Assembly (NCBI RefSeq): GCF_900215575.1
Contig: NZ_OBEJ01000003.1
Location: 124,001-188,000, forward strand
DNA length: 64,000 nt
Origin: Natronoarchaeum philippinense
GTDB taxonomy: Archaea; Halobacteriota; Halobacteria; Halobacteriales; Natronoarchaeaceae
Reading direction: 5' to 3'
Shown: piece by piece, positions 29,354 through 46,072 of the stretch
Position numbering within the stretch: position 1 is the first letter of the stretch
Layout of the letters: every line of letters begins with the position of its first letter
The notes under the pieces: generated by a model
Seen by the model: only the letters and a program-made list of their open reading frames with translations
The model's database searches: none
What the model was told of the DNA's origin: nothing
Made by a program: the position numbers and the translations under genes

Positions 29354-31687
29354 TCAGTCTCGGACTGATTCGAGCAGACACCGTTGCTCGACGCGCATTA
29401 CCGTCCGCTGGGCGTCCTCGACTGCGTCGATGTTCGCCGAGATCGAGGTTGCGCCTTCGGTGACGAGATAGCGGATCATCTCCGGATCGGAGCCGGCCTG
29501 TCCGCAGATGCTCGTCGCAACGTCGTGCTCGCGGCACGTCTCGATCACCCGCCCGATGAGTTCGAGCACCGCCGGGTGAAGTTCGTCGAAGCGGTCGGCT
29601 ACCTGCTCGTTGTTCCGATCGACCGCGAGCGTGTGCTGGGTCAGGTCGTTCGTGCCAAAGGAGACGAAATCGAGGCCCGTCTCGCAGAGCCCTTCGATGG
29701 AGAGCGCGCTCGCGGGCGTCTCGACCATCGCGCCCCACGAGCGCTTGTCGGGATCGATCCCTGCCGCTCGCAGGCGATCCTTCGCTCGCAGCGCGTCCTC
29801 GGCGTCGTTGACCATCGGAAACATGATCTCGACGTTGTCGTAGCCCATCTCGTAGAGCCGGGCGAACGCCGCCAGTTCGTGCTCGAAGAGTTCGGGCTTG
29901 TCGAGCGAGCGTCTGATCCCGCGGTAGCCGAGCATCGGATTGTGCTCGGTCGGCTCGCCGTCGCCGCCCTGCAGTCTGCGGAACTCGTCGGTCGGCGCGT
30001 CGAGCGTCCGGACGCGCACCGGCCGCGGGTAGAACGCGTCGGCGACCGTCTGGATCCCGTCGGCGAGCTCGCGCACGTACGCGTCGGCGCCGTGGTCCGC
30101 GACGTACCGCTCGGGCGTCTTGTCCGTCGAGAGGATCAAGTGCTCGGTCCGGAGCAGGCCGACGCCATCGGCACCCGTGTTCGCGGCGCGTTCGGCGGCG
30201 TCGGGGATCGAGATGTTCACCTTGACTTCGGTCGCCGTCATCGGCTTCGGCTGGGCCTGCACCGGCTCTGCGGGCTGCTCGTCTCGGCCGGCCGCCGCCG
30301 CCGAGTCCGGAGTGCTCTCGTCGATCGGCTCCTCGACGGGCCCGCTTCTGACCTGTCCTTTCTCTCCGTCGACGTGAATCCGATCTCCATCGGCGATCTC
30401 GGCAGTTCCCGATTCGGTCCCGACGACGGCCGGTACTTCCAATTCGCGTGAGACGATCGCGGCGTGGGAAGTCATCCCGCCCTCGTCGGTGACCAGTCCG
30501 GCGGCTCGTTTCATCGCAGTCACCATGTCCGGCGTCGTCATCTCGGTGACCAGCACGTCGCCCTCCTCGACTTTGTCGAGGTGATCGAGCCGGTCGACGA
30601 TGCGGGCCCGCCCCGTCGCCGTTCCCGGACTAGCGCCGAGGCCCTGCACGAGCAACTCTTGGCTGTCGGTGCCTGTGCTGGCGCCGGACGACGCCTGCGC
30701 GCTCGCCCCGCCGTCGGCGGTCGCTCCCGCCGCGTCGGCGTCGTCGCTCTCGATCGTCGTGATCGGCCGCGATTGGAGCAGGTAGATTTCGTCGCCCTCG
30801 ATCGCCCACTCGACGTCCTGCGGCCCGTCGTAGAGCGCCTCGACGCGCTCGCCGATTGCGACCAGCCGGTCGAGTTCGTCGGCCGAAAGGACGCGCTCGG
30901 TTCGCCGGTCGTCCGGCACTGCGGTTTCGACGGTCTCGCCCGTCTCCGGGTCGCGGACGTGCATCACCGTCTTCTCGGCGACGGTCGCGTCGAGGACAGC
31001 GCGTCCGTCCCGATCGACGACGTAGTTGTCCGGCGTCACGACGCCCGAGACGACGGCTTCGCCGAGCCCCCACGCGGCTTCGATCACCGACTGGGCCGCG
31101 CCGGTCGAGGGGTGGCTCGTGAACATGACGCCGCTCTTGTCGGCGGCGACCATCTCTTGGACGACGACGGCCATGTCCACGTCCGTGTGCGAGAAGCCCT
31201 GCTCTTGCCGGTAGTAGATCGCACGCTCGGTGAACAGCGACGCCCAGCACTGCCGGACGCGATCGACGAGCGCCTCGCCGGTTACGTTCAGGAACGTCTC
31301 TTGCTGGCCCGCGAAGGACGCGTCGGGGAGGTCCTCGGCGGTCGCCGACGATCGGACGGCCACCGGCGTCCCCGCACCGATCGTCTCGTAGGCGTCGAGA
31401 ATCTCCTCGCGGACCGCTTCGGGCACCGCAGTCTCCTCGATGAGCGTTCGCACCCGGTCTTTCGCCGCGGCGAGCTGTGTAGAGTCCTCCACGTCGATGT
31501 CGAGCGCGGCCTCGATATCGTCTTCGAGGCCGGCTTCCCGGACGAATCGCCGATACGTTCCCGCGGTGACGACAAAGCCCGGCGGGACCGGGAGGTCGTT
31601 TACGGTGAGTTCCCCGAGCGACGCCGCTTTCCCGCCGACTTCCTCAAGGCTGTCCGCCGAGATGTCTCCCAGCCACAGGATGGCCAT
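29354..31687 (-). CDS. ppsA: Phosphoenolpyruvate synthase (pyruvate, water dikinase)
   Basis: A 777-residue three-domain enzyme converting pyruvate and ATP to PEP, AMP and phosphate. The N-terminal ATP-grasp domain begins LGDISADSLEEVGGKAASLGEL. The phospho-histidine domain has the signature GGMTSHAAIVSRELEVPAVVG (in parts GGMTSHAAIVSREL). The C-terminal PEP-binding domain has GVGLLRTEHLIL, FGTNDLTQHTLAVDR and CGQAGSDP. A low-complexity Ala/Asp/Ser linker (about 315-340) sits before the swivelling domain. It lies among rhamnose genes whose products are pyruvate and lactate, so it likely opens gluconeogenesis from them. Confidence 0.95.
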   Translation of the reverse strand: MAILWLGDISADSLEEVGGKAASLGELTVNDLPVPPGFVVTAGTYRRFVREAGLEDDIEAALDIDVEDSTQLAAAKDRVRTLIEETAVPEAVREEILDAYETIGAGTPVAVRSSATAEDLPDASFAGQQETFLNVTGEALVDRVRQCWASLFTERAIYYRQEQGFSHTDVDMAVVVQEMVAADKSGVMFTSHPSTGAAQSVIEAAWGLGEAVVSGVVTPDNYVVDRDGRAVLDATVAEKTVMHVRDPETGETVETAVPDDRRTERVLSADELDRLVAIGERVEALYDGPQDVEWAIEGDEIYLLQSRPITTIESDDADAAGATADGGASAQASSGASTGTDSQELLVQGLGASPGTATGRARIVDRLDHLDKVEEGDVLVTEMTTPDMVTAMKRAAGLVTDEGGMTSHAAIVSRELEVPAVVGTESGTAEIADGDRIHVDGEKGQVRSGPVEEPIDESTPDSAAAAGRDEQPAEPVQAQPKPMTATEVKVNISIPDAAERAANTGADGVGLLRTEHLILSTDKTPERYVADHGADAYVRELADGIQTVADAFYPRPVRVRTLDAPTDEFRRLQGGDGEPTEHNPMLGYRGIRRSLDKPELFEHELAAFARLYEMGYDNVEIMFPMVNDAEDALRAKDRLRAAGIDPDKRSWGAMVETPASALSIEGLCETGLDFVSFGTNDLTQHTLAVDRNNEQVADRFDELHPAVLELIGRVIETCREHDVATSICGQAGSDPEMIRYLVTEGATSISANIDAVEDAQRTVMRVEQRCLLESVRD

Positions 31688-31820
31688 TGTGTGTTAGACA
31701 CTGGGCATGTTCTATTAATATCTTCCGGCGGACTCCGACAGCACCGGACGTTTTGCGGCGAAGCGAGCGCTCACGGTGCCGTTTTCGGGAATTCGACTGG
31801 TTCGATTCCGGGCGGCCGAG

Positions 31821-32663
31821 CTACTCGTCGACTTCCTCGACGGTGTTGACGAGCGTGCCGACGCCCTCGACTTCGACCTCGACGGTTTCTCCGGGATGGA
31901 GCTGGATGTCTTGGAAGGTTCCGACGCCTTCGGGCGTCCCCGTGGCGATCACGTCGCCCGGTTCGAGGCGAACCCGCGAGGAGACGAAGGCAACGAGGTC
32001 GGCGACCGTCCGGATCATCATGCCGGTGTTGTCGTCCTGCATCGTCTCGCCGTCGACGCGGGAGGCGATGTCTAGGTCCTGCGGGTCGTCGATCTCGTCG
32101 ACGGCGACGTAGGGGCCGACTGGCGTCGTCCGCTCCATCGCCTTGCCCGAGAACCAGTCGAGTAAGTCATCGTCGCCGACCTGCAGACCGAGCTGGAGGT
32201 CCCGCGCGGACGTGTCGTTGAGGATCGTGTACCCGGCGACGTGATCGAGCGCGTCCTCGGCGTCGACGTGGCGTGCCGGCTCGCCGATCACCGCCGCCAG
32301 TTCGGCTTCGTAGTCGATCTCCTCGGTCACGCGGGTGTGATACGAGATCGGCTCGCCGTGGCCGACGAGCGTGCGTGGGAGCTTCATGAACACCAGCGGC
32401 CACTCGGGCACCTCGATGTCGGACTCCTCGGCGTGGGCCTCGTAGTTCAGTGCCGCACAGAACACCGTGTTCTCCCGGGTCGTCGGCGGTAGGTGCGTGA
32501 TCGAATCGCGGTCGAACGTCTCGCCGTCGGCGTCGGCGGCGTCTTCGGGCCGCGAGAGGGCGTCCTGAAAGCCGTCGAACTCCTCGGTGACATCCCGGAC
32601 CGTGCCGTCCTCGAACACTCCGATACGTGCCTCCCCATCCGCTTGGAATCGTCCAATACGCAT
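31821..32663 (-). CDS. FAH-family hydrolase (candidate 2,4-diketo-3-deoxy-L-rhamnonate hydrolase)
   Basis: A 280-residue fumarylacetoacetate-hydrolase-fold protein. Metal ligands lie in EEIDYEAELAAVIG. It also has GYTILNDTSARDLQ, KAMERTTPVGPYV and the C-terminal GDVIATGTPEGVG, all classic for the family. In the diketo-hydrolase route this enzyme splits 2,4-diketo-3-deoxyrhamnonate into pyruvate and L-lactate. The SDR dehydrogenase gene lies 90 bases upstream on the same strand and would supply the substrate. L-lactate oxidation genes are 2.4 kb away, consistent with the product. Other FAH reactions cannot be excluded by sequence alone. Confidence 0.85.
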   Translation of the reverse strand: MRIGRFQADGEARIGVFEDGTVRDVTEEFDGFQDALSRPEDAADADGETFDRDSITHLPPTTRENTVFCAALNYEAHAEESDIEVPEWPLVFMKLPRTLVGHGEPISYHTRVTEEIDYEAELAAVIGEPARHVDAEDALDHVAGYTILNDTSARDLQLGLQVGDDDLLDWFSGKAMERTTPVGPYVAVDEIDDPQDLDIASRVDGETMQDDNTGMMIRTVADLVAFVSSRVRLEPGDVIATGTPEGVGTFQDIQLHPGETVEVEVEGVGTLVNTVEEVDE

Positions 32664-32752
32664 GTTCGTCTACTCTCTGCCCCGTACCTTTAGATTTTCG
32701 CTCACCGGTTCGTCGGCGTCGTCTGGCCCTCTTGCGGGTGCCCGCCGCCGTC

Positions 32753-33550
32753 TCAGCCCCTGAGATAGCCGCCGTCGACGGCGATCGACTCGCCGGTGAT
32801 CCACTCGCCCTCTTCGGAGAGCAACAACACCGCGGCGTGGCCGATCTCCTCGGGCGTGCCGATCCGGTCGAGCACGTGCTCGTCGATCGTCTCGGCCAGT
32901 AGCTCTTCTTCGGTGGCGTCTGACTGTGCGGCGCGCTCTTCGAGCCACTGCTGGACCATCGGCGTGTCGATCGTCCCCGGCTTGATCGAGTTGGCAGTGA
33001 TGCCGTGCTCGGCCAACTCCTTTGCGAGGACGGTCGTGAACGTCACGACGGCAGCCTTGGAGGCGCCGTAGGCGCCCTGTCCTTTGAATGGCCGCTCGGC
33101 GCCGACCGAGGCGACGTTGACGATGCTCCCGGCCGTTTCGGTCTCGATCATCCGCTCTGCGACGTGCTTCGAGACGAGGAACGTCCCCTTGGCGTTGACG
33201 CCGAAGTGTCGATCCCAATCCTCCTCGGTCGTCTCCAGAATCGAGATTGCTTGTTGGACGCCGGCGTTGTTCACCAGTCCGTCGATCGGCCCCAGTTCGG
33301 ATTCGGCCCCTTCGACGGCGTCGGCGACGGCGTCCGCGTCGGTGACATCCACCTTCCATACTGTCGCTGCGCCGCCGATATCGCGGACTTCGTCGGCCGT
33401 TTCCTCGGCAACGTCCGGCCGCAGGTCAAATATCGAGATGTCCGCACCGGAGCGGGCACACCGCCGCGCGATGCCGCGGCCGATGCCTCTTGCCCCGCCT
33501 GTCACGACGACGTGGCGTCCGGCCAGTCGGCTGTCCACTAACTCGCTCAT
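32753..33550 (-). CDS. SDR-family dehydrogenase (candidate 2-keto-3-deoxy-L-rhamnonate 4-dehydrogenase)
   Basis: A 265-residue classical SDR. It has TGGARGIGRGIA (TGxxxGxG cofactor loop), Asp 42 after the second strand (ISIFDLRP), which favours NAD+, and GLVNNAGVQQ. The catalytic serine lies in VNVASVGAE and YGASK supplies the Tyr/Lys pair. The C-terminus is GESIAVDGGYLRG. Position directly upstream of the FAH-type hydrolase suggests it oxidises KDR at C4. I chose ATG 33550 (MSELVDSRLAGRHVVVTGG); the upstream extension to 33871 is arginine-rich and overlaps the IclR gene. Confidence 0.88.
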   Translation of the reverse strand: MSELVDSRLAGRHVVVTGGARGIGRGIARRCARSGADISIFDLRPDVAEETADEVRDIGGAATVWKVDVTDADAVADAVEGAESELGPIDGLVNNAGVQQAISILETTEEDWDRHFGVNAKGTFLVSKHVAERMIETETAGSIVNVASVGAERPFKGQGAYGASKAAVVTFTTVLAKELAEHGITANSIKPGTIDTPMVQQWLEERAAQSDATEEELLAETIDEHVLDRIGTPEEIGHAAVLLLSEEGEWITGESIAVDGGYLRG

Positions 33551-33708
33551 TTGTCTCGGCCTCCCGTCGTTCCTCGAACCCCCGTCGGCCCAGTTGCTTC
33601 TGCGTCGGCGTCGCCAACGAATGATCCGACCGCTGCGCGGCTCTGGCCGTGCTGAACACGTTGCATCGGTGGATACTGACGGTCGCTGCAACCTAACTGT
33701 TTCCCCGT

Positions 33709-34467
33709 TCAGGCGTGCGAGAGATTCACCTCGATCACGTTTGCGCTCCGCAGGAGCAACTCCGGAATCTCCTCGCGGAACGTCTCGCCGCGCATGCGGC
33801 TCTTCGGCCCCGAAACGCTGATCGCGGCGATAGCCCGACCCTCCTCGTTCGTGATCGGGGCGGCGACACACCGCATCCCCTTGACGCGCTCCTCGTCGTC
33901 GTAGGCGAATCTTCGTTCCCGTATCTGATCGAGCTCGTCGAACAGTTCTCCCCTGTCGCTGATCGTCTTCTCGGTGACGGCCGGCAGGCCGTGGCGATCG
34001 ATGATCGACTCGACTTCCTCTCGGGGACGGAACGCGAGGATCGACTTCCCCAGCGAGGTGGTCTGCAGGTGGACGCGCATGCCGGCGTGCGTGTCCAACT
34101 GGACCGCATCGGGCCCTCGGGCTTTGTAGAGGAAAATGCCTTTTCCGTGTTCCTCGATCATCAGGTTCGTGTGCTCGCCGGTCTGCTCGGCCAGTGTATC
34201 GAGTTCCTCGCTGGCGATGGGATACACTTTGTACCGCGAGCGCGCCTGCTCGCCGACGCCGAGAAATCGGGTGCCGACGTAGTATTCTCCGTCTTTCTTG
34301 ACGAGATACTCCTCGTTTTCGAGCGTCCGGAGGTGATCGTGGATCGTACTCGTCGGTTTGTCGATCTTGTCGGCTAACTCGGAGACGCCGGCGCCCTGTA
34401 GCTCCCGGAGCGTGTTGATGATCTCGAAGGAGGTTTTCGCCGCCTTCACCGGGACTTCCTCTGTCAT
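33709..34467 (-). CDS. IclR-family transcriptional regulator
   Basis: A 252-residue regulator. The N-terminal winged helix-turn-helix reads TSFEIINTLRELQGAGVSELADKIDKPTSTIHDHLRTL (core GAGVSELADKIDKPTSTIHD). The C-terminal effector domain has DTHAGMRVHLQTTSLGKSILAF and VAAPITNEEGRAIAAISVSGP, normal for IclR. ATG 34467 is chosen; MVRS at 34479 is an alternative. It lies amid the rhamnose genes and is the obvious candidate regulator, effector likely a pathway sugar acid. The 595 bases upstream contain three dyads that may be its targets or those of another factor. Confidence 0.92.
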   Translation of the reverse strand: MTEEVPVKAAKTSFEIINTLRELQGAGVSELADKIDKPTSTIHDHLRTLENEEYLVKKDGEYYVGTRFLGVGEQARSRYKVYPIASEELDTLAEQTGEHTNLMIEEHGKGIFLYKARGPDAVQLDTHAGMRVHLQTTSLGKSILAFRPREEVESIIDRHGLPAVTEKTISDRGELFDELDQIRERRFAYDDEERVKGMRCVAAPITNEEGRAIAAISVSGPKSRMRGETFREEIPELLLRSANVIEVNLSHA

Positions 34468-34694
34468 ACTTCGTACCATGTCACATAAACCCAAAAATCT
34501 TCCGCCATCACCGGACGGCTGGACGGACGACGACCGCTCCACTCGAGGTGTGCTCCGCGACGGATCACCGCTGCGCTCTCGCTCTGGGGTCAGTTGTGGT
34601 AGGTTCTGACCGCTTTTGTCTCGCCTGTGCACCTCTCTGACTCGTTGTACCGCCTCGGAACGCCCGGCGAGTGTGCCAACTCGACTGCCAATTT

Positions 34695-34709
34695 TCCGGT
34701 ATCACCGGA
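34695..34709. promoter_or_regulatory. Perfect dyad TCCGGT-ATC-ACCGGA
   Basis: Six-base arms around a 3-base centre, about 230 bases upstream of the IclR start. Could be an operator or a small hairpin. Confidence 0.35.
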
Positions 34710-34750
34710 CAGATATCCGCGCCGAACTCGCTCTTTTCGGCCATGGGGAA

Positions 34751-34770
34751 TTACACCACTATGTCTGTAA
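34751..34770. promoter_or_regulatory. Dyad TTACA-N10-TGTAA, copy 1
   Basis: Perfect 5-base arms with 10-base spacer, preceded by A and followed by AAT. Copy 2 lies exactly 60 bases downstream, shares the central TATG, and has the same flanks, so about 18 of 26 positions are identical. The spacing equals about six helical turns, which would place both on one DNA face. Candidate paired operator. Confidence 0.45.
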
Positions 34771-34810
34771 AATCATCTGCGAGTACGCCGATGGCCGGCG
34801 TCGCGGAGTA

Positions 34811-34830
34811 TTACAAAGATATGGGTGTAA
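34811..34830. promoter_or_regulatory. Dyad TTACA-N10-TGTAA, copy 2
   Basis: Same layout as copy 1 (34751-34770), with spacer AAGATATGGG. The repetition of arms, spacer length and AAAAT-type flank makes chance less likely. Regulated gene not certain; the nearest start downstream of either orientation is the IclR gene. Confidence 0.45.
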
Positions 34831-35062
34831 AATACAGCCTGCGGTGGGTATTCCCTTCCAGTTTGCTCTCGTGGATCGTCCGATCAGCGCCGCCGCCGAA
34901 CGGCGTTTCGACCGTTGAACCCCCTCCGAACTGGCCGTCCGGCATTGCCGGATACTGGCGACGATGTGCAGACTGTTGTACGCCGGCACGCTCTCAGTAT
35001 GCTCGGCGCTCGCGCTGCCGGCTTCGACTCGATCTCAAGCAGAAAGCGGGTCGGTGCGGGGC

Positions 35063-37243
35063 TTACTCCGCTACCAGTTCGATCGGGTGCCGAGGCTGGC
35101 GCTCCAGCAGGGCGTCGATCTGTTCGAGACAGGAGGTGCCGCTGGCGACGACCGGACGCTCGCGGACGCCGTCGGCCTCCAGTTGGTCGCGCAGTCGGTC
35201 GCCGACATCCATGCTCAGCTCGTAGTACTCGGACTTGTAGCCGAAGCTCCCGGCCATCCCGCAGCACTCGACCTCCGAGGTCGTCACGTCGTAGCCACAC
35301 TCCTCCAGCACCGCGACCGTGTGGGCCTCCAGTCCGAGGGTACGCTGCTGACAGTGACTGTGATACGCGATCGCCTCGTCGTCGACCGTCGACAGCGCCG
35401 CGGCGTCGGCGCCGTTGTCGAGGAGGCCGTAGACGTACTCCAACAGTTCGTAGCTCCCCTCGGCGAGATCGGTGAACCGCTCTTCGTCGAGTAACTTCTC
35501 GTACTCGCGCTGGAACATCGCGTAGTCGCTCGGCTCGATCACGACCACGTCGCGGCCGTCTGCGACGTGTGGCGCGAGCGTCTCGGCGACGCGTTCGGCG
35601 TGGTCCGTCGCGGTGGCGACCATCCCTTGTGAGAGTGGCGCGCGCCCGCTGGAAGCCGTCGGCGGAATCACCACGTCGACGCCGAGCGCTTCGAGCGCTT
35701 TGACGGCCGCTTTACCTCGATCGACTTGGACGTGGTTCGTGTAGAGATCGGGGTAGAGAACGGCTCGTCGCGTCGGATCGCTCACCGTCGAGTCGCGGTC
35801 GGCAAACCACTCGACGAGCGTCTCGCGCTCGAACGACGGCAGTTCGCGGCGCGGGTCGATATCGAGCACGCGACCCATGAGTCGACGGGAAACGCTCGTT
35901 TCGGCCAGCCAGTTCGACACTGGCGCCGTCGCGCTGGCAAGCTTGGCGACCGCCTCGAAGTTACCGAAAAAACGCTTCTGGAGTGGCGCGCCGTCGTCTT
36001 CGGCGTCCGGCGTCAGCCCGTCGACGAGCCACTCGGCGGGCTCGTCGTGCTCGCGGTTAACGCGATCTCGGACGACGGTGTTGATCCACGGAATGTCGAT
36101 CCCGACCGGGCAGGCGTTTACGCACCGGCTACAGCCCGTACAGAGGTCGTTGAACTCCCCGGCGACATCCAGCCCTTCGATGCCGGCCTCCCAGCCGGTG
36201 GCGATGCCGCCCGAGTACGTCTCGCCGCCGAAGGCGTGGCCCCCGACCGACTGGAAGTTCGCACAGGAGTTCGAGCACGCCGAGCATCGGATACAGTACA
36301 GCGTCTCGCGCAGGTGTTCGTCCTCGCGCATCTCCAGTCGGCCGTTGTCGACGAGCACGAGGTGGAAGTCCCGATCGGCCTCGAACGCCGACAGCGGCGT
36401 CTCGTCGTCGTCGAAGTCGACGACCGGCGTGTCGACCGGCGGCGTCAGCAAGGAGACGTACGACGTGATGTCTTGGCCGGTCCCCGAACGGCCGATCAGC
36501 TCGATGAACGGATGGAGGTCCTCGACGGCGGGCACGATCTTCTCGACGCCGGCGACGGTGATCTGGGTGTCCGTCGCAGCGACGGTCTTGCGGGCGTTGC
36601 CCTCGCTGGTGACCAGCGCCATCGTACCCGTGTCGGCGGTGAGGAAGTTCGCGCCGGTCATCCCCACCTCGGCGTCGACGATCTGCTCGCCCAGCTTCTC
36701 GCGCGCGAAGTGGGTCAGCTCCTCGGCGGTCTCCAGCGGTACGTCTGGGTCGAACCGCTCGTTGAACAGCTCGGCGATGCCCTCGCGGGACTTGTGGATC
36801 GCCGGCGCGACGATGTGGGAGGGCGCCTCGTCGGCGACCTGCAGCACCCACTCGCCAAGGTCAGTCTCGACCACGTCGACCCCGTCGCCTTCGAGCGCGT
36901 CGTTGACTTCCAACTCCTCGCTAGTCATTGACTTGCTCTTGACGACGCGCTCGGCGTCCCGGTCGTCGACGATCGACCGGACGTACTCGTTCGCGTCGGC
37001 GGCGTCGTCGGCGACGTACACCGTGCCGCCGTTCGCTTCGACGGTCTCGGTCAACTGCTCGACGAGTTCTGGAAGCCGTTCGATGGCGTCTTCCTTGATT
37101 GCGCGGGCCTCGCGCTTGAGGTCTTCGTAGTCTTCGAGGTCGGCGACCGACTCGTACCGGCCGTCGTTGAACGCCTGCGTATTCTCCGCGACCGCCGCGC
37201 CCTCGGTTCGCATCAGTTCCCGGATTTCGTCTGCGGTGGCCAT
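35063..37243 (-). CDS. Fused LutB-LutA: LUD / 4Fe-4S / cysteine-rich (CCG) lactate oxidation protein
   Basis: A 726-residue protein joining two normally separate subunits. Residues about 60-300 are the LUD domain (MTGANFLTADTGTMALVTSEGN). C317-C320-C323-C327 and C368-C371-C374-C378 form two 4Fe-4S sites (CIRCSACSNSC, CTGCSRCVNACP). After a linker, residues about 480-726 are a LutA/GlpC-like CCG region, with AIAYHSHCQQRT and VECCGMAGSFGYKSE. Bacterial LutABC oxidises L-lactate to pyruvate. It starts 2 bases after the LutC gene. In this region its natural substrate would be the L-lactate released by the rhamnose hydrolase; glycolate is a less likely alternative. Confidence 0.88.
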   Translation of the reverse strand: MATADEIRELMRTEGAAVAENTQAFNDGRYESVADLEDYEDLKREARAIKEDAIERLPELVEQLTETVEANGGTVYVADDAADANEYVRSIVDDRDAERVVKSKSMTSEELEVNDALEGDGVDVVETDLGEWVLQVADEAPSHIVAPAIHKSREGIAELFNERFDPDVPLETAEELTHFAREKLGEQIVDAEVGMTGANFLTADTGTMALVTSEGNARKTVAATDTQITVAGVEKIVPAVEDLHPFIELIGRSGTGQDITSYVSLLTPPVDTPVVDFDDDETPLSAFEADRDFHLVLVDNGRLEMREDEHLRETLYCIRCSACSNSCANFQSVGGHAFGGETYSGGIATGWEAGIEGLDVAGEFNDLCTGCSRCVNACPVGIDIPWINTVVRDRVNREHDEPAEWLVDGLTPDAEDDGAPLQKRFFGNFEAVAKLASATAPVSNWLAETSVSRRLMGRVLDIDPRRELPSFERETLVEWFADRDSTVSDPTRRAVLYPDLYTNHVQVDRGKAAVKALEALGVDVVIPPTASSGRAPLSQGMVATATDHAERVAETLAPHVADGRDVVVIEPSDYAMFQREYEKLLDEERFTDLAEGSYELLEYVYGLLDNGADAAALSTVDDEAIAYHSHCQQRTLGLEAHTVAVLEECGYDVTTSEVECCGMAGSFGYKSEYYELSMDVGDRLRDQLEADGVRERPVVASGTSCLEQIDALLERQPRHPIELVAE

Positions 37244-37245
37244 CG

Positions 37246-37767
37246 TCAGGGCCCCTCCTCGACGACGATAACGTGCACGTCTTTCGGTCCGTGCGCGCCC
37301 TTGACGAGCGCGCCCATGTCCGCGGTCGCGCTCGGCCCGGTCGCCAGAATCGCGCTCCCGCCCTCGTCGTTGAACGTCTCGTGGAGATCCTCGACTGCGG
37401 CGTCCATGTCCGCGACGATGTCGGCTGCCCGAACGACGGCGACGTGGCGCTCGACGAACAGGCTCACCAGTTCGCTCGCCCGGTCGGTCAGCGTCAGCGC
37501 GAGCGATCCGTAATCGGCGACGCCGAGGCTCGCCCCCGTCACGCCGGTCGTCGCCGCTCGAAGCGACGCCGGCGTCGGATCGACCTCGACTGCGGCGGCA
37601 TCGAGCGACAGATCCGGCTCGTCGAACGCTCGATCCAGCGAGACGCCGACGGCGGCCTCGACGATCACGTCATCGAGCCGGTCGCCGAACGCCTCGGCAG
37701 TGGTGTTCGTTACCGATACTCCCAGTTCGTCGAGTGACGACTCGAACGTCGAGAGTGCGCTTGCCAT
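37246..37767 (-). CDS. lutC: LutC-like LUD domain protein
   Basis: A 173-residue LUD-domain protein, the third component of the L-lactate oxidation complex. Visible are ASLGVADYGSLALTLTDRASEL, the family core, and LPERHVAVV-like FVERHVAVVRAADIV. ATGPSATADMGALVKGAHGPKDVHVIVVEE closes the protein (core GPSATADMGALVKGAHGP). It is the first gene of the lutC-lutBA operon. The start at ATG 37767 gives MASALSTFESSLDELG, normal for the family. Its promoter would lie in the 248-base gap shared with the divergent sugar importer operon. Confidence 0.88.
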   Translation of the reverse strand: MASALSTFESSLDELGVSVTNTTAEAFGDRLDDVIVEAAVGVSLDRAFDEPDLSLDAAAVEVDPTPASLRAATTGVTGASLGVADYGSLALTLTDRASELVSLFVERHVAVVRAADIVADMDAAVEDLHETFNDEGGSAILATGPSATADMGALVKGAHGPKDVHVIVVEEGP

Positions 37768-37962
37768 CAGTACGCACAGACTGGTGCTACACCATCATTT
37801 AGCTTTGGTTGGGCTGTCTCTGTGCGCACCTCCTCGATAGCCTTGCTGTGCCTGTTTACCGGTGCGAGCGTCTTCGTCGCGCCCATACACGACCCCACGA
37901 CGATCACGCTCCGGCCGCCAAAGTTATTGAATGGCTGTTATTTACGGCCGCTTGCGCTCCCC

Positions 37963-37977
37963 ATGTAGCCGGTACAT
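37963..37977 (+). promoter_or_regulatory. Dyad ATGTA-GCCGG-TACAT at the sugar importer promoter
   Basis: Five-base perfect arms, immediately followed by a TATA-like CATTTATG 33-41 bases before the importer ATG. It also lies between the divergent lutC and importer promoters. Suits a repressor or activator site, perhaps for the IclR protein; unproven. Confidence 0.4.
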
Positions 37978-38015
37978 TTATGCTACCTCACTCTCCACAT
38001 CTCTCATAGAGTACC

Positions 38016-39392
38016 ATGACAGATAACGGCACGTCGATTGGACTCAATAGGCGACAGTACCTAACTGGTCTCGGGTCGGCAGCGGCCGCCGGCCTCGCCG
38101 GCTGTACTGGTGGCAATGGTTCAAGCGGACTCGACTTCTGGCTGTTCGGTGGCATCCCCGCCGAGCGCGAGTACATCAGCAGCCACTACCAGGAGTACGA
38201 CGGTGATGTCAGCTACCAGCACCAAGAGTGGGGGCAGAAGTACCAGATCATCGCCTCTGCGGCGGCCAACCAGAACCTTCCGGACGTGATGGCCGGCCAG
38301 TGTCAGCAGATCCCCGACTACGTGGGCGCTCAGGCGATCCAACCGCTCGACCAAGACGACTACCAAGATCAGCTCGACGAGCTCAACAGCAACTTCATTC
38401 AGGCCAATATTGACACGCTGATGTACGAGGGCCTAGGCGACACCAGCGGTGAACGCCAGTGGGCTCTGCCGGGCGGCTACGCCGACCTCGGCCCCTTCGT
38501 CGACATCCGAACCGACTACCTCGAACAGACGAGCTTCGACGAACCGCCGCGCACGTGGCCCGAACTCATCCAACTCGGCCAAGAGATGCAAGAGATCGAC
38601 GGTGTATCGGCGGCCATCACGGCTCCCGGCACCGACTTCGGGCTGACGACGGGCTATTTCATCGGCTTCGTCTACGCGAACGGCGGCCGGTACTTCGATC
38701 CCGAAACGATGGAGGCGACGGTCGACCAGCCCGGTTTCGTCGACGCCGTCAGGCTCTATCAGGACATTGCGGAGGCGGGACTGTTCCCCGATTCGATGGC
38801 CGAGAACAACCACATCGCGGCGGGTCGGCTCCTCCGTGAGGGCGAGTCCGGAATCCTCATCACGTACTCCCACGCCAACGCGATCTACCAGACGACCGGC
38901 GCACCCCAGCCGTGGCTCGACGGCGAAGGCCACACGGTGACCCGCGCGCCGCTCCCGCAAAACCCGTCCGGCAACTTCGAGCCCCAGGACCTGCTGATGC
39001 AGAACGCCCAAGGGTTCATGATGGGCAACGACACGCAGGACGCGTTCGACTTCGCCAGTTGGTGGAACGAGCCCGAACAGCTCGCGCCGTGGACGTACTC
39101 TGCGGACGCCGATGTCGGCATCCGCGGGCGCGTTCCCACGCTCCAAAGCGCCTTCGAGGAACCGTCGGACCTGTTCCGGAGTCAGTTCGGCGACCTCATC
39201 ACGCTGTACGAGAACGACGACCTGTTCAACAGAACGTCCCGATTCCCGTCGTTCTCGGGGCTCGCCTCGATCCAGAGCATCATCAACACGCAGGTCATCC
39301 AGCCAGTCGTGCTCGGTGAGGCGACAGCGGAGGAGGCCTGCGCCAACGCGAACTCGGAGGTCCAGTCCGTCGTCGACGAGGAAATTGCCTGA
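38016..39392 (+). CDS. CUT1-type sugar ABC transporter substrate-binding lipoprotein
   Basis: A 458-residue binding protein. NRRQYLTGLGSAAAAGLAGC gives a Tat motif followed by a lipobox, so it is a Tat-exported lipid-anchored protein. The mature part starts LDFWLFGGIPAEREYI and has the SBP_bac_1 layout (QKYQIIASAAANQNLPDVMAG, then hinge segments). First gene of a four-gene importer operon inside the rhamnose region, so rhamnose or a rhamnoside is the likely ligand. The family also takes maltose, glycerol-phosphate and oligosaccharides. Confidence 0.9.
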   Translation: MTDNGTSIGLNRRQYLTGLGSAAAAGLAGCTGGNGSSGLDFWLFGGIPAEREYISSHYQEYDGDVSYQHQEWGQKYQIIASAAANQNLPDVMAGQCQQIPDYVGAQAIQPLDQDDYQDQLDELNSNFIQANIDTLMYEGLGDTSGERQWALPGGYADLGPFVDIRTDYLEQTSFDEPPRTWPELIQLGQEMQEIDGVSAAITAPGTDFGLTTGYFIGFVYANGGRYFDPETMEATVDQPGFVDAVRLYQDIAEAGLFPDSMAENNHIAAGRLLREGESGILITYSHANAIYQTTGAPQPWLDGEGHTVTRAPLPQNPSGNFEPQDLLMQNAQGFMMGNDTQDAFDFASWWNEPEQLAPWTYSADADVGIRGRVPTLQSAFEEPSDLFRSQFGDLITLYENDDLFNRTSRFPSFSGLASIQSIINTQVIQPVVLGEATAEEACANANSEVQSVVDEEIA

Positions 39393-39452
39393 TCGCGCGT
39401 AGAAATACTTTTGTCGGCAGGTCATGAAGCGTTTGCCATACGATCATAAACA

Positions 39453-40379
39453 ATGAGTTACGTAGACCAAGCACAGTCGTCGTACGAGAGTGCGACCAGT
39501 AGAATTCCGGAGAGCCTCCGGGTGTACCTACCGATCCTCCCGGTGATGGCTCTCGTAGGGGTGTTCATCCTCTACCCAATCGCACAGGCGATCTACTCCA
39601 GTTTCTTCCGCAAGAGCCTCCTCTCTCCCGGAGAAGCGGAGTTCGTCGGCGCGGCGAACTACGCCGAGATCTGGAGCAACCCCGACATCCATCAGGTGCT
39701 CTGGAACACGGCAATCTGGGTGACGGTCGGCAGCGTCGCCGCGATCATCCTTGGATTCCTGATGGGTTGGCTGCTCCACGAGAAGCTACCGTACACGAGC
39801 GTTGCGAGCGCGATCGTCCTGATTCCGTGGGTTCTCCCGCGCGTCGTGGGCGCGTCGATCTGGCGATTCATGTTTAACGGCTCGCAGGGAGTCGTCAACG
39901 AGCTGTTGGTATCAGCGGGGTTGATCGACGACTACATCGTCATGCTCGGATCGACCGAACTGTCGCTGTGGCCGCCGATCGTCGGGATGATCTGGCGGTT
40001 GGCGCCACTGTTCGCGCTCCTGACGTTGACATCCCTGCAGGGCATCGACGAACACCTCTTCGAGGCCGCCCGGATGGACGGCGCGACGCCGTGGGAGCGG
40101 TTCCGGTACATCACCATCCCGATGATGCGGTACAACCTAGCGATCGGGTTCCTCTTGATGCTCATCTACAACATCAGGAACTTCTCGATGGTCTGGGTGA
40201 TGACCAAGGGCGGCCCCGGCGTCTCCAGTAGCACGCTTCCGGTGATGATCTACCGGTCGGCGTTCATCGACTTCGAGGTCGGCTTCGCCTCGGCTCTGTC
40301 GGTGTTGCTGTTCGTCGTGCTGCTGGTGTTCTCGTACTACTACATCAAGTTCTACGACAAGATGCGAGGTGGACTCTAA
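39453..40379 (+). CDS. CUT1 sugar ABC transporter permease (MalF/UgpA-like)
   Basis: A 308-residue membrane protein with six hydrophobic segments. The EAA loop is DEHLFEAARMDGATPWERFRYITIP (core EAARMDGATPWERF), the contact site for the ATPase. PILPVMALVGVFILYPIAQAIYSSF is the first TM. Its stop overlaps the next start by one base (TAATG), coupling translation with the second permease. Confidence 0.92.
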   Translation: MSYVDQAQSSYESATSRIPESLRVYLPILPVMALVGVFILYPIAQAIYSSFFRKSLLSPGEAEFVGAANYAEIWSNPDIHQVLWNTAIWVTVGSVAAIILGFLMGWLLHEKLPYTSVASAIVLIPWVLPRVVGASIWRFMFNGSQGVVNELLVSAGLIDDYIVMLGSTELSLWPPIVGMIWRLAPLFALLTLTSLQGIDEHLFEAARMDGATPWERFRYITIPMMRYNLAIGFLLMLIYNIRNFSMVWVMTKGGPGVSSSTLPVMIYRSAFIDFEVGFASALSVLLFVVLLVFSYYYIKFYDKMRGGL

Positions 40380-41344
40380 TGGCGACAGACAACACAGATC
40401 CGACGGCGGAGTTCCGCAGGAATCAATCGTGGTTGTACGACTCGAAGGCGGGCGGGTACGTCAGGAAGACCGCCGTCGGTCTGTTGATCCTGATAATTGC
40501 TGCATTCGTCCTGTTCCCGCTGTACTGGATGATCGTGACCGCGCTAAAATCGACCGCGGAGATCCAGCAGATCCCGCCGACGCTGTTCCCCGAGCAGTTC
40601 TCGCTCGAAGGGTTCCGGCTCGTCGTCGAATCGTCGCTCGAATCCAGCGGCTACGACGGGTTCGTCGAGAGCACCTTCGGTGTCGAGATCTCCTCGGCGA
40701 TCAACATCGATATCCTCGGGATGATCGTCAACAGCCTGAAGGTCGCCATCGGCGCCGGCGTGCTCGCGGTCGTCCTCGGCACCGGCGCCTCCTACGTCCT
40801 CTCGCGACGGGAGTTCCGCGGAAAGACCGTGCTGATGAGCCTGCTGCTGGCGTCGCTGATGTTCCCCGGCACCGCGATTATGGTGCCCGAGTGGGAGCTG
40901 ATCTCGACGCTCGGTCTGTTCAACACGCATCTGGCGCTGATCCTCATCTACGGCGCGATGACGGCGCCCTTCGTCGTCTGGCTGATGAAGGGCTTCTTCG
41001 ACGACTTCCCGGATTCGATCGTCGAGGCGTCGCGGATCGACCAGTGTACGTCCTTCGAGACGTTCTGGTACGTCATCGTCCCGATGGCGCGCAACTCGCT
41101 GATCGCGTCGTTCATCTTCGCGTTCCTGCTGGCGTGGAACGAGCTGGTGTTCGCACTGACGCTGCTCGACAACCAGAACAGCACGGTTCCTCCGGGCCTG
41201 CTGACCTTCGTGCAGGGCTTTAACACGCAGTGGAACGTCGTCGCGGCGGCGTCGATCATCGTCTCGGTCCCGGTGCTGATCGGTCTGGCCTACATCCAGC
41301 GCTACTTCGTGCAGGGGCTGACCGGCGGCGCCATCAAGGGCTAA
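40379..41344 (+). CDS. CUT1 sugar ABC transporter permease (MalG/UgpE-like)
   Basis: A 321-residue membrane protein. The EAA-type loop is DSIVEASRIDQCTSFETFWYVIVP (core EASRIDQCTSFETF). LFPLYWMIVTALKSTAEIQ after TM1 is typical of the MalG family. It has an insertion of about 30 residues (ESSLESSGYDGFVESTFG) in the first periplasmic loop compared with the usual ~275-residue length. Forms the heterodimeric channel with the preceding gene. Confidence 0.92.
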   Translation: MATDNTDPTAEFRRNQSWLYDSKAGGYVRKTAVGLLILIIAAFVLFPLYWMIVTALKSTAEIQQIPPTLFPEQFSLEGFRLVVESSLESSGYDGFVESTFGVEISSAINIDILGMIVNSLKVAIGAGVLAVVLGTGASYVLSRREFRGKTVLMSLLLASLMFPGTAIMVPEWELISTLGLFNTHLALILIYGAMTAPFVVWLMKGFFDDFPDSIVEASRIDQCTSFETFWYVIVPMARNSLIASFIFAFLLAWNELVFALTLLDNQNSTVPPGLLTFVQGFNTQWNVVAAASIIVSVPVLIGLAYIQRYFVQGLTGGAIKG

Positions 41345-41395
41345 CTGCCCTCCGGGTCAGTAGCTTTAATATCCGTTAGACGGTACCGATTTACA

Positions 41396-42562
41396 ATGAC
41401 ACACTTGGAGTTAGACGGTGTCACGAAGATATTCGGTGATCCGAACAAAGACGGCGTCGTCGCGGTAAACGACCTCGATATAGACGTTCCCGACGGGGAC
41501 TTTCTCGTCCTGCTCGGCCCCAGTGGCTGTGGCAAGACGACGACGCTTCGCATGATCGGCGGCCTCGAAGAGCCCAGCGAGGGCGAGGTCAGGTTCGACG
41601 ACACCGTCGTCAACGACGTCAAGGCGCGCAACCGCGACATCGCCATGGTGTTCCAAGACTTCGCGCTGTATCCCCACATGACGGTCAGCGAGAACCTCGG
41701 CTTCGGACTCCGGCGCGAGGACAACGGCATGGACGACGACGACATCGAGGCTCGCGTCACCGAGACCGCCGAGATGCTCGAAATCGAGAGCCTCCTCAAC
41801 AACAAGCCCGCACAGCTCTCGGGCGGGCAGAAACAGCGCGTCGCGCTCGGCCGGGCGATCATCCGCGAACCGCGGCTGTTCCTGTTCGACGAGCCGCTGG
41901 CCAACCTCGACGCCCAACTGCGCAAGACGATGCGGACCGAGATCGACGAACTCCAGTCCGAAGTCGGCATCACGTCGGCCTACGTCACGCACAATCAGGA
42001 GGAGGCGATGACGATCGCCGACAAGATCGCCGTCCTCGACGCTGGCGAACTCCAGCAGCTCGGGACGCCAGATCAGGTGTTCAACGAACCGGCGAACCTC
42101 TTCGTCGCGCAGTTCGTCGGCAGCCCCGACATGAACCTCTTCGACGCGACGTTGACCGAGACCGCAGACGCCTACGGCATCGAGATGGACGGCGCGTCGT
42201 TCGACCTCCCGAAACGACTCGTCGACGCCGAAATCACGACCGACGAGGTGCTCGTCGGCTTCCGGCCGCAGGACTTCTATCAGACCCGCCGCCGCGCGCT
42301 CGACGGGCCCGAGTTCGACGCTGACGTTCGTGTCGTCGAACCGGTCGGCACCGAAGCCGTCGTCCACGGCGACTCGGCGCCCGGGGATGTCACTGCGAAA
42401 GTCGGCGGCTTTCACGATATCTCGTCGGGTGAACGGCTGTCGCTCACGATCGCGCCCGAACACGTCTACCTGTTCGACGCCGAAACGGAGGAACTGCTCA
42501 AAGGTCGTCTCGTCGCCGAGCACGCCGACGGACAGGCATCCCCGGACGAGGTGGAAGCCTGA
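41396..42562 (+). CDS. Sugar ABC transporter ATP-binding protein (MsmK/UgpC/MalK-like)
   Basis: A 388-residue ATPase. Walker A GPSGCGKTTTLRM, Q-loop FQDFALYPHM, signature LSGGQKQRVALGRAI, Walker B LFLFDEPLANLDAQL and switch VTHNQEEAMT are present. The C-terminal OB/TOBE regulatory domain spans about 240-388. It begins 51 bases after the second permease. A TATA-like CTTTAATATCC lies 27-37 bases upstream, so it may also be expressed from its own promoter, letting one ATPase serve several importers. Confidence 0.92.
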   Translation: MTHLELDGVTKIFGDPNKDGVVAVNDLDIDVPDGDFLVLLGPSGCGKTTTLRMIGGLEEPSEGEVRFDDTVVNDVKARNRDIAMVFQDFALYPHMTVSENLGFGLRREDNGMDDDDIEARVTETAEMLEIESLLNNKPAQLSGGQKQRVALGRAIIREPRLFLFDEPLANLDAQLRKTMRTEIDELQSEVGITSAYVTHNQEEAMTIADKIAVLDAGELQQLGTPDQVFNEPANLFVAQFVGSPDMNLFDATLTETADAYGIEMDGASFDLPKRLVDAEITTDEVLVGFRPQDFYQTRRRALDGPEFDADVRVVEPVGTEAVVHGDSAPGDVTAKVGGFHDISSGERLSLTIAPEHVYLFDAETEELLKGRLVAEHADGQASPDEVEA

Positions 42563-42686
42563 CACCTGTCGTTCGGCTCCGGCGACGCCGTCGCCGCGGG
42601 GCCTCGCTTTGGAGCACCCAAAGCTATTAGCCGACGTACCGACACTAGCACAGTGACTCAGGTAGACAGACAACCACTAGCAAACT

Positions 42687-43718
42687 ATGAAAGCGATTGT
42701 CCAGACGGGCCCTCGTTCCATCGAGACACAGGAGCGAGAGCGGCCCGAGCCAGACGACGACGAGGTCTTAGTACAGGTCCACACGGCGGGATTGTGTGGA
42801 AGCGACGCCCACGCGTACAAGTACGACGGCGGGTACGAGTGGATTCCGATCCCCCGGGTTATGGGCCACGAGTACTCCGGCGAGGTCGCCGCGGTCGGCG
42901 ACGCCGTCGAGGACTTTGCGGTCGGTGACAAGGTCATCGAGGAGCCGATCCACGACTGCGGGCACTGTTTCCAGTGCAAGAACGGCCAACCCAACGTCTG
43001 CCAGAACTTCTCGATCACCGGGATGCACCGCGACGGCGCGTACGCCGAGTACGTCACGGTCGAGCCACAACACCTGCACGCCGTCCCCGAGAGCGTCCCG
43101 CTGCGCCACGCGGCGATCACCGAGCCGACGAGCATCGCCACGCGCGCCGTCCTCGAACAGTCCGAGACGACGCCCGGCGACAACGTCCTCGTCGAAGGTC
43201 CGGGCCCCATCGGCGTGCTCGTCGCCGCCGTCGCCGACTCGCTGGGTGCGAACGTCGTCGTCTCCGGGTTGGAGCAGGACGCCGCGTATCGGCTGCCGCT
43301 GGTCGACGACCTCGGGATCGACACGATCAACGTCCAATCCGAGGATCTGGAGACTCGCAGCGAGGACCTTACCGACGGCATCGGATTCGATGTCGTCTTC
43401 GATACGACGGGCCATCACACTGGAATCGGCACGGCCGCCGATCTCGTCCGCAAGGGCGGACAGGTCGTCGTCGTCGGCATCCCCAACGACGCCAGCGAGG
43501 TGACGCTCACGCCGGTCGTCCGCGGCGAGGTCGAGGTCAACACCTCCTACGGGTCGACGTGGACGAACTTCGAGCAGGCGCTTCGACTGATGGAACGCGG
43601 CGAGATCGCCGTCGACAAGATCCTCGACACCTCCTACAGCGCCGACGATCCGACCGGAGCGTTCGAGGCGTTCCTCGACTCCGAGACCTGCAAACCCGTC
43701 TTCCAGTTCACCGAGTGA
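42687..43718 (+). CDS. Zinc-dependent medium-chain sugar dehydrogenase (candidate L-rhamnose 1-dehydrogenase)
   Basis: A 343-residue MDR enzyme. Catalytic zinc ligands are Cys 37 (GLCGSDAHAY), His 61-Glu 62 (MGHEYSGEV) and a later Glu (EPTSIA). Structural zinc ligands are C91, C94, C97 and C105 (DCGHCFQCKNGQPNVC). The NAD(P) site is EGPGPIGVLVAAVADSLGA. Such enzymes oxidise polyols or sugars such as sorbitol, threonine, glucose or fucose. Placement between the importer and L-rhamnonate dehydratase makes it a candidate for oxidising the sugar to its lactone. An LLM flavoenzyme two genes on is the rival for that step. Confidence 0.85.
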   Translation: MKAIVQTGPRSIETQERERPEPDDDEVLVQVHTAGLCGSDAHAYKYDGGYEWIPIPRVMGHEYSGEVAAVGDAVEDFAVGDKVIEEPIHDCGHCFQCKNGQPNVCQNFSITGMHRDGAYAEYVTVEPQHLHAVPESVPLRHAAITEPTSIATRAVLEQSETTPGDNVLVEGPGPIGVLVAAVADSLGANVVVSGLEQDAAYRLPLVDDLGIDTINVQSEDLETRSEDLTDGIGFDVVFDTTGHHTGIGTAADLVRKGGQVVVVGIPNDASEVTLTPVVRGEVEVNTSYGSTWTNFEQALRLMERGEIAVDKILDTSYSADDPTGAFEAFLDSETCKPVFQFTE

Positions 43719-43831
43719 CGCCGATCCACGACCGATCGCGGCCGGCATAGAGACATCGCCGTCGCGCGGTCTCGGACGGATGCGACGGAAAGATTTTAAC
43801 CGCATACGCGGAATGATACACACACTGTACC

Positions 43832-45037
43832 ATGGAAATCACTGACGTTTCAGCAACGAAAATCAGCAACGAGTCGTGGGGCGAGTTCATCGAGTTCCCC
43901 CTCGTCACGATCATGTCGAAGTACGACGAGTACCGCAACGTCGACGGCGAGAATCCCCAAGCCCGCCGGAAGTGGATGGGTCCGGTTGGCGACGTCGTCG
44001 TCGAAATCGAAACGGACGCCGGCATCACCGGCGTCGGCGTCGGCAACTGGGGTTCCGGGGCCATCGCCACTGTCGTCGAGGAGACGCTCTCGAAGCTCGT
44101 GATCGGCGAGAACCCGATGCGCCGCGAGCACCTCTGGGAGCAGATGTACCGCGCGACGCTACCCTTCGGCCGCAAAGGTGTCGCCATCATGGCGATCAGT
44201 GCCGTCGATCAAGCGCTGTGGGACATCGCGGGCAAGGACGCTGGCAAGCCGGTGTACGAACTGCTCGGCGGCCCAACGAAAGACGAAATTCCCGCGTACG
44301 CGTCGAACCTCCATCCCGTCGACATGGAGAAATTAGAGCGTGAGGCCATCCAGTACGCCGAGGCGGGCTTCGACGCGGTGAAGCTCCGCTTCCTCCACGG
44401 CCCCGGCGACGGCCGCGCTGGCATGAAGAAAAACGAGGAGATCGTCAAGACGGTCCGCGACGCGGTCGGCGATGAACTCGAAATCGCGGGCGACGCCTAC
44501 ATGGGCTGGTCCGTCAAGTATGCGAAAAAGATGGTCGATCGCCTCGAACCGTACGACATGGCGTGGGTCGAGGAGCCGGTCATCGCCGACGACATCGACG
44601 GCTACGCCGAGGTCCGTGAGGCCGCGCCGATGCCGATCTCCGGCGGCGAGCACGAGTTCACCCGCTGGGGCCACGAGGATCTCCTCGAAGCGGGCGCTGT
44701 CGATATCCTCCAGCCCGACGTGGGCCGCGTCGGCGGCATCACGGAGATGAAGAAGGTCGCCGACATGGCCGAAGTCCACGACGTGCCCGTGATTCCCCAC
44801 GCCGGCACGAACCCGACGCTGCACGCCATCGCCGCCCACACCAACATGCCGATGGCGGAGTACTTCCCCACGCCCGAGTGGTTCGAGGAGCGTCAAGACG
44901 AGCAGGAGTCGACCTACGCCGACGCCATCTTCGAGAACCCGCCCTCGCCCGAGGACGGCTCGATCCCGCTGCCCGACGAGCCCGGCGTCAGCACCCAACT
45001 CAATCGCGAGGCGCTCGAACATTTCGCCGTGGAGTAA
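43832..45037 (+). CDS. rhmD: L-rhamnonate dehydratase (enolase superfamily)
   Basis: A 401-residue mandelate-racemase-subgroup enzyme. It matches rhamnonate dehydratases across its length: YRATLPFGRKGVAIMAISAVDQALWD (core LPFGRKGVAIMAISAVD), GKPVYELLGG, and FLHGPGDGRAGMKKNEEIV. Metal-binding and catalytic segments follow: IAGDAYMGW, WVEEPV, SGGEHE, DILQPDVGRVGGITEM and VIPHAGT. The C-terminal PGVSTQLNREALEHF is also family-like. It dehydrates L-rhamnonate to 2-keto-3-deoxyrhamnonate. A TATA-like ATTTTAACC is about 36-44 bases upstream. The next gene starts 3 bases after its stop, so the two are co-transcribed. Confidence 0.9.
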   Translation: MEITDVSATKISNESWGEFIEFPLVTIMSKYDEYRNVDGENPQARRKWMGPVGDVVVEIETDAGITGVGVGNWGSGAIATVVEETLSKLVIGENPMRREHLWEQMYRATLPFGRKGVAIMAISAVDQALWDIAGKDAGKPVYELLGGPTKDEIPAYASNLHPVDMEKLEREAIQYAEAGFDAVKLRFLHGPGDGRAGMKKNEEIVKTVRDAVGDELEIAGDAYMGWSVKYAKKMVDRLEPYDMAWVEEPVIADDIDGYAEVREAAPMPISGGEHEFTRWGHEDLLEAGAVDILQPDVGRVGGITEMKKVADMAEVHDVPVIPHAGTNPTLHAIAAHTNMPMAEYFPTPEWFEERQDEQESTYADAIFENPPSPEDGSIPLPDEPGVSTQLNREALEHFAVE

Positions 45038-45040
45038 CCC

Positions 45041-46072
45041 ATGTCCGAGAACATCTCGTTCGAGTACAACGTTCCCGTGTTCGCCGGTGCGCCCGATCAG
45101 GGCGGCGACGAGCCCGTCCACCGGGACACACCCACCTACGACGCGCTGGACTGGGAGACGACCAAGAACGGCATCCTCAAGGCTGAGGAACTCGGCTTCG
45201 ACGCCGCGTGGGCGCCCGACCACTTGATGCTCGGTCGCGACCGAGCCGAGTACGAGTGCTGGACGCTCCTCTCGGCGATGGCCGGCTTCACCGACGATAT
45301 CAACATCGGGTCACTGGTGCTGTGCAACGACTACCGGAACCCCGCGCTCGTCGCGAAGATGGCGGCGACGCTGGACGTGATCTCGGAGGGCCGCCTCGAA
45401 CTCGGGCTGGGCGCGGGCTGGCACGAACCGGAGTACGACGCCTACGACTGGGAGTACCGCGACGGGTTCGACCGGCTGATGCGCCTCGACGAGTCGATCC
45501 GCCTGATGAAGCGGATGTGGGATGCTGGCGGCGACGGCGCCAGCTTCGACGGCGACCACTACCAGATCGAGGACGCCCCTTGCGCCCCGGCGCCCGTACA
45601 GGACCCCCATCCCGACATCCTCGTCGGCGGGCAGGGCGAAAACGTGACGCTCAAGCTCGTCGCCAAGCACGCCGACGTCTGGAACACCGACGTGTTCAAC
45701 GGCGACGTGGAAACCTTAGAGCACAAGATCGGCGTCATCGAGGACCACTGCGAGACCGTCGGGCGCGACCCCGACGAGATCGAGTACTCGTGGGACGGCC
45801 ACATCGTCTGCACGCGCGACGAGGAGAAGCTCGACCGGATGCTCGACCTGATGACGCCGATCCAGTTCGAAGACGAGTACACCGACCAGCCCGACATCAC
45901 CCGGGAGAACGCCGACGACTACTTCATCGTCGGAACGCCCGAGGAGTGCGCCGCGGCGATCGAACGCCGGATCGACGCCGGCGTGACGAAGTTCATGGGC
46001 TGGTTCGTCGACTTCCCCGACCACGGCGGGATGGAACTGTTCGCCGACGAGGTGATGCCGGAGTTCCAGTAG
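45041..46072 (+). CDS. LLM-class, probably F420-dependent, flavoenzyme in the rhamnose operon
   Basis: A 343-residue luciferase-like TIM-barrel protein. The segments AAWAPDHLMLGRD (with the conserved His used in F420-dependent relatives), INIGSLVLCNDYRNPALVAKMAATLD, LELGLGAGWHEPEYDAYDW and DILVGGQGEN are typical of F420-dependent oxidoreductases, including F420-glucose-6-phosphate dehydrogenase. It follows the rhamnonate dehydratase gene after 3 bases, so it should act in the same pathway. Sugar 1-oxidation with F420 is a plausible role. A monooxygenase using reduced flavin is the alternative. Confidence 0.82.
   Translation: MSENISFEYNVPVFAGAPDQGGDEPVHRDTPTYDALDWETTKNGILKAEELGFDAAWAPDHLMLGRDRAEYECWTLLSAMAGFTDDINIGSLVLCNDYRNPALVAKMAATLDVISEGRLELGLGAGWHEPEYDAYDWEYRDGFDRLMRLDESIRLMKRMWDAGGDGASFDGDHYQIEDAPCAPAPVQDPHPDILVGGQGENVTLKLVAKHADVWNTDVFNGDVETLEHKIGVIEDHCETVGRDPDEIEYSWDGHIVCTRDEEKLDRMLDLMTPIQFEDEYTDQPDITRENADDYFIVGTPEECAAAIERRIDAGVTKFMGWFVDFPDHGGMELFADEVMPEFQ

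Follow-up and report, generated by a model that had tools for sequence, protein, structure and literature searches.

Gene content of the rhamnose locus

The window, a stretch of 64,000 nucleotides from Natronoarchaeum philippinense, codes at 45041-46072 (+ strand) for a luciferase-like (LLM) oxidoreductase of 343 aa, whose open reading frame opens with an ATG. Exactly 3 bases separate it from the end, at 45037, of the open reading frame of a dehydratase, in agreement with the spacing given in an earlier note on this DNA, and a GGAG motif lies just 5' of the start codon, which puts it within the last bases of the dehydratase (GTGGAGTAACCCATG). The protein belongs to the luciferase-like superfamily (PF00296, 174.2 bits, above the Pfam gathering cut-off of 27.9). 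Its best NCBIfam model, TIGR03560, carries the label "F420-dependent" and scores 223.8-225 bits against a cut-off of 231.4, which leaves the window protein 7.6 bits short. The letters PDHL and GAGWHEPEYDAY, quoted in the earlier note, are present in the translation. A structure model, built on a shallow alignment, had a mean pLDDT of 50, a quality insufficient to search for similar folds or to fit a cofactor. No relatives were found in the viral contigs searched, and scans for sigma-70-type promoters and for terminators, both unsuited to archaea, gave nothing above chance.

Together with its neighbors (28079-46072), the LLM gene lies in a complete haloarchaeal L-rhamnose diketo-hydrolase cluster. 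The enolase-superfamily dehydratase (43832-45037, +) is the L-rhamnonate dehydratase of step 3, RhcD: its best model is that of L-rhamnonate dehydratase, PRK15440, at 265.6 bits and under the cut-off of 393, and its orthologs (88-94% identity) are named rhcD in RefSeq. Next to it is a zinc (MDR) dehydrogenase (42687-43718, +; ADH_N/ADH_zinc_N), which the earlier note had seen as competing for the first step. Its orthologs in Haloarcula (82-85%) are named rhcE, the enzyme of step 4, and it was rejected as a rhamnose dehydrogenase. The same strand carries a CUT1-type ABC sugar importer at 38016-42562, consisting of a binding protein (SBP_bac_1), two permeases (both BPD_transp_1) and an ATPase (ABC_tran with a MalK-type OB domain), and an amidohydrolase at 28460-29326 (Amidohydro_2), the L-rhamnono-lactonase of step 2, which has an ortholog named rhcC and a weak match to L-fucono-1,5-lactonase.

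On the opposite strand are found an L-rhamnose mutarotase of the RhaM family (28079-28381; PF05336, 53.9 bits; TIGR02625, E 9e-7), a PEP synthase (PpsA, 29354-31687) recognized from the sequence of its open frame, which would convert pyruvate to PEP and is annotated also near the Haloarcula marina cluster, and an FAH-family 2,4-diketo-3-deoxy-L-rhamnonate hydrolase for step 5, of rhcF type and divergent subtype (31821-32663; PF01557, 225.5 bits; NF053535, 172.5 bits). They are followed by an SDR dehydrogenase (32753-33547; PF13561), which is a rival candidate for step 1, and by an IclR-family, RhcR-like regulator (33709-34476; PF01614/PF09339), a recurrent neighbor. Finally, two LUD proteins are encoded there, an LdhH/LutB-like iron-sulfur L-lactate dehydrogenase (35063-37243; LUD_dom, 130.5 bits; NF045670, 453 bits and under the cut-off) and a LutC-like protein (37246-37767; LUD_dom, 63.3 bits). 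The haloarchaeal rhc set of mutarotase, lactonase, rhcD, rhcE, rhcF-type hydrolase, lactate oxidation, ABC importer and IclR regulator is found in full at 28079-45037.

Haloferax volcanii has the same gene set, with the RefSeq names rhcC, rhcD, rhcE and rhcF, and its L-rhamnose pathway was reportedly described by Reinhardt et al. in 2019. The orthologous cluster of Haloarcula pelagica likewise has genes named rhcC, rhcD, rhcE and rhcF and an L-rhamnose mutarotase, and its LLM is annotated just as "LLM class flavin-dependent oxidoreductase". The clusters of Halopiger and Halostagnicola are surrounded by genes for rhamnogalacturonan lyase, GH28, GH78 or GH88; given these surroundings and the rhc gene names, the substrate is most likely L-rhamnose from pectin. 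A sulfonated sugar, which the earlier note had offered as another substrate, (an SsuD/SmoC-like role) was rejected on gene context, since the mutarotase, the lactonase, rhcD, rhcF, the LUD lactate dehydrogenase and the nearby pectin and rhamnogalacturonan enzymes indicate L-rhamnose; similarity to 7oh2/7olf is weak. L-fucose was also considered as a substrate: other RhaM-family clusters, which resemble a fucose route, have no close LLM ortholog and contain a distant dehydratase (~30%), SDRs and genes that are fucosidase-like by sequence. In H. volcanii rhamnose is reportedly degraded to pyruvate and lactate, and a strain deleted for LudBC grows less well on this sugar (PMC8305020). HVO_B0113 appears in the same review among the LLM proteins whose annotation is still to be settled; this protein is probably the LLM ortholog of the H. 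volcanii rhc cluster.

Conservation of the rhcD-LLM pair in Halobacteriales

Among 293 Halobacteriales genomes, LLM (at least 78% identity) was found in 31 and rhcD (at least 72%) in 30. In every rhcD genome (30 of 30) the two genes are adjacent on the same strand with LLM directly downstream, and 5-18 bases lie between their aligned ends (Fisher p 4e-40, a value that overstates the number of independent events because the genomes are related). The genome with the 31st LLM is 66% complete. At the orthologous loci examined, a few bases separate the stop codon of the dehydratase from the start of LLM; the exception is the metagenome locus L011, where LLM adjoins the mutarotase instead of the dehydratase. 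The pairing is more regular than can be seen from a single sequence, and it bears out the tight coupling to an L-rhamnonate dehydratase of a deoxysugar pathway that had been proposed from the window; from the spacing and its conservation, the two genes are predicted to be co-transcribed. RhcE is encoded within 10 kb of LLM in 29 of the 31 genomes, occurs also in 13 genomes without LLM and varies in orientation relative to the pair, which leaves rhcD-LLM as the invariant unit. The mutarotase is present in 28 of the 31 and directly adjoins LLM (~70-210 bases) in seven genomes, one of them without rhcD beside LLM; several Natrialbaceae have the order rhcD-LLM-mutarotase. The LLM protein is thus very probably a member of the haloarchaeal L-rhamnose pathway. 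Beyond the orthologs, one relative reaches 60% identity and the others at most 49%. By comparison, the three bacterial clusters examined that have an annotated L-rhamnonate dehydratase (42-46% identical), in Variovorax, Paraburkholderia and Qingshengfaniella, have no adjoining LLM, but harbor PdxA and mostly DHDPS-type genes instead.

Some variation was observed in and around these clusters. Two subtypes of rhcD (~88-97% and 71-79% identity to the window gene) track neither LLM nor genus, as though one had been swapped for the other next to an unchanged LLM. The window FAH hydrolase at 31821-32663 shares ~45% identity with the rhcF found in most orthologous clusters and 84% with the one at locus L053; on these identities, two rhcF subtypes appear to be exchanged between clusters. 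The 60% LLM relative (L072, genome G028) is found with a lactonase, a Gfo/Idh-like protein and an FAH protein, with no rhcD nearby. Moreover, LLM proteins of another subfamily (TIGR03619-like, ~29% to the window LLM) turn up repeatedly no more than 10 kb from rhcD-LLM clusters (L006, 20109-21029; L010, 19025-19966; L067), once beside a gene resembling GH88/GH105 by sequence. On plasmid pHTUR01 of Haloterrigena turkmenica (L124, 21502-25203), the mycofactocin genes mftA, B2, C, E and F lie ~7 kb from the rhamnose cluster.

Pathway step and cofactor of the LLM enzyme

The rhamnose pathway has two oxidations before cleavage, at C1 of rhamnose and at C4 of 2-keto-3-deoxyrhamnonate. The MDR enzyme is named for the C4 step (the references of PMC10444878 also include Bae et al. 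2015, for an MDR enzyme at this step), and the zinc enzyme of the window, being RhcE, does not fill step 1, so that C1 is the vacant slot. The surroundings of LLM (~10 kb) were scanned with a limited query set for homologs of SDR, MDR, AKR, Gfo/Idh and ALDH enzymes and of hydroxyacid dehydrogenases; in many SDR-less clusters (including those of G273, G229, G192, G169, G103, G245, G213 and G189) just the RhcE and LLM proteins were detected. In nine SDR-less LLM genomes the top SDR hits of a less stringent search were 38-41% or absent, which corresponds to background. The annotated H. turkmenica cluster contains RhcE, LLM, LUD and one hydroxyacid dehydrogenase. The many clusters without another step-1 candidate, the pathway context and the invariant pairing with rhcD make LLM a candidate for step 1. 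Its links to the mutarotase and the lactonase, which act right before and right after C1 oxidation, favor this role. Two facts count against it: the closest partner of LLM is the step-3 enzyme and not the lactonase, and in one genome (G065) LLM and rhcD occur with neither rhcE nor mutarotase. On balance, L-rhamnose 1-dehydrogenase is the likeliest single role for LLM, at somewhat less than even odds, whatever its cofactor, and we assign both the step and the substrate tentatively.

In 5 of 30 cases an LLM paralog (~40-48%) is at most 4 kb away from a RhaM-family mutarotase. At L074, L113, L114, L115, L136 and L138 such a paralog occurs together with a second RhaM-family mutarotase; the clusters examined in full also encode an SMP-30 lactonase, a protein resembling mannonate dehydratase and an ABC importer for sugars. 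From their gene content these clusters appear to be a second sugar pathway with an LLM enzyme. They support a sugar as substrate but, as SDR and AKR genes are also present in them, leave the step unproven.

Regarding the cofactor, the relevant comparison is with the LLM dehydrogenases FGD and FSD, which oxidize C1 of an aldose with F420 (PMC6279831, PMC5352752). The window protein shares the fold family of FGD, FSD, Adf and fHMAD and the conserved catalytic-type His of the DH motif, but differs from them in lacking the active-site Trp and Glu and in forming a separate clade. The motifs DH(F/L)xPW and GxGExxNE of FGD, Adf and fHMAD read DHLMLG and GAGWHEPE in LLM, with PDHLMLG and GAGWHEPE replacing SDHFQPW and GTGEALNE, and of the FGD trio His40-Trp44-Glu109 only the His is kept, no Trp being found at Trp44 and a Trp standing opposite Glu109. 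A tree of 26 proteins was built with a small choice of references, several of them represented just by the aligned stretch of a PDB chain. It unites the known F420 enzymes (support 95/91) and places LLM with TIGR03560-like haloarchaeal and actinobacterial proteins (94-95% bootstrap). Joining the LLM/TIGR03560 set to the known F420 dehydrogenases (FGD/FSD/Adf/fHMAD) is rejected (p-AU 0.025), while a single clade of this set with all F420 enzymes is not (p 0.215). TIGR03560 (Rv1855c-like) is also the curated family that scores highest for LLM and gives its name to the Halocatena orthologs in RefSeq; no member with a tested function was found in this analysis. The window genome encodes CofD (346.7 bits) and NpdG (269.4 bits), as a host that makes and recycles F420 should, and the nearest bacterial relatives of LLM are from actinobacteria, a group known for F420. 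The PF01613 flavin reductase is absent from 15 of 30 LLM genomes, including that of the window, and is not found near LLM in any. F420 is favored by CofD and NpdG, by the actinobacterial relatives and by the half of the LLM genomes without PF01613, and is somewhat more likely than not the cofactor of LLM. The label "F420-type" in the earlier note thus agrees with the TIGR03560 name and with the genes of the host, but not with the signature of the F420 dehydrogenases, and the tree does not decide between F420 and FMN.

An FMN enzyme would call for a different function, namely a two-component monooxygenase that strips off a substituent, be it methyl, sulfonate or another, or oxidizes a by-product, and so feeds a modified rhamnose into the pathway. 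This would fit the best tree, where the TIGR03560 group is placed weakly beside the FMN enzymes RutA and SsuD (81/80), the closest solved structure, 3rao, a putative luciferase-like monooxygenase, and the label "flavin-dependent" that most orthologs bear in RefSeq. However, such an enzyme needs a flavin reductase partner. The PF01613 search (SsuE-type PF03358 lay outside it) found none in half of the LLM genomes and none near LLM in the others, and none is annotated in seven RefSeq rhc clusters. The actinobacterial affinity and the lack of annotated sulfur genes in the rhc clusters examined point the same way, and we consider an FMN monooxygenase fairly unlikely.

The SDR gene offers a rival for step 1. 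The window and 10 other genomes also carry it, so that in these genomes the first step could depend on NAD(P). All 11 SDR genomes among the 293 have LLM, and in Haloarcula the SDR adjoins the mutarotase and the lactonase, the natural site of a step-1 enzyme. LLM could then be an accessory protein that repairs or detoxifies a reactive intermediate, or an isoenzyme with another electron carrier; nonetheless, LLM is present in every rhcD genome and the SDR in about a third (20 of the 31 LLM genomes have no SDR ortholog), the reverse of what an accessory protein should show, and this explanation seems rather improbable. LLM might also act on the RhcD product, as a second, F420-linked 2-keto-3-deoxy-L-rhamnonate 4-dehydrogenase backing up or replacing RhcE. 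It adjoins rhcD whatever other genes move, a 97% complete genome (G065, locus L068) has the lactonase, rhcD and LLM with no rhcE or mutarotase found, and the F420 LLM enzymes Adf and fHMAD oxidize secondary alcohols (PMC6279831). On the other hand, RhcE is so regularly close to LLM that the C4 step is already served, the links to mutarotase and lactonase indicate a free sugar, and the Adf/fHMAD signature is not kept, all of which makes a second C4 enzyme quite unlikely.

Proposed role and implications

In the proposed C1 role, LLM would be made together with RhcD and would receive the L-rhamnose anomer supplied by the mutarotase. It would take the hydride off C1 to give L-rhamnono-lactone, the likeliest acceptor being F420, which NpdG would re-oxidize with NADP+. 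The lactone would be opened by RhcC and the product dehydrated by RhcD, followed by C4 oxidation by RhcE, cleavage to pyruvate and L-lactate by RhcF, and oxidation of L-lactate by the LUD proteins. In its full form, in which free L-rhamnose is oxidized at C1 by an F420-dependent LLM of a clade apart from the known F420 sugar dehydrogenases, and the paralogs found with mutarotase and lactonase do likewise for other sugars, the proposal is a speculative one and somewhat unlikely to hold throughout. To our knowledge, no one has shown an F420-dependent first oxidation of L-rhamnose in haloarchaea.

LLM belongs to the core of the rhc pathway and has no assigned function, and it exposes a gap in a rhamnose pathway that looks complete on paper. 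Halophilic archaea make F420, whose role there is undetermined, with one F420-dependent reaction reported (reviews PMC8305020, PMC8498797). Here a named gene always accompanies a well-defined pathway whose growth phenotype is simple, and the role of F420 in haloarchaea thereby becomes testable. If the proposal is true, F420 would gain a role in haloarchaeal carbon metabolism, in the C1 oxidation of free L-rhamnose.
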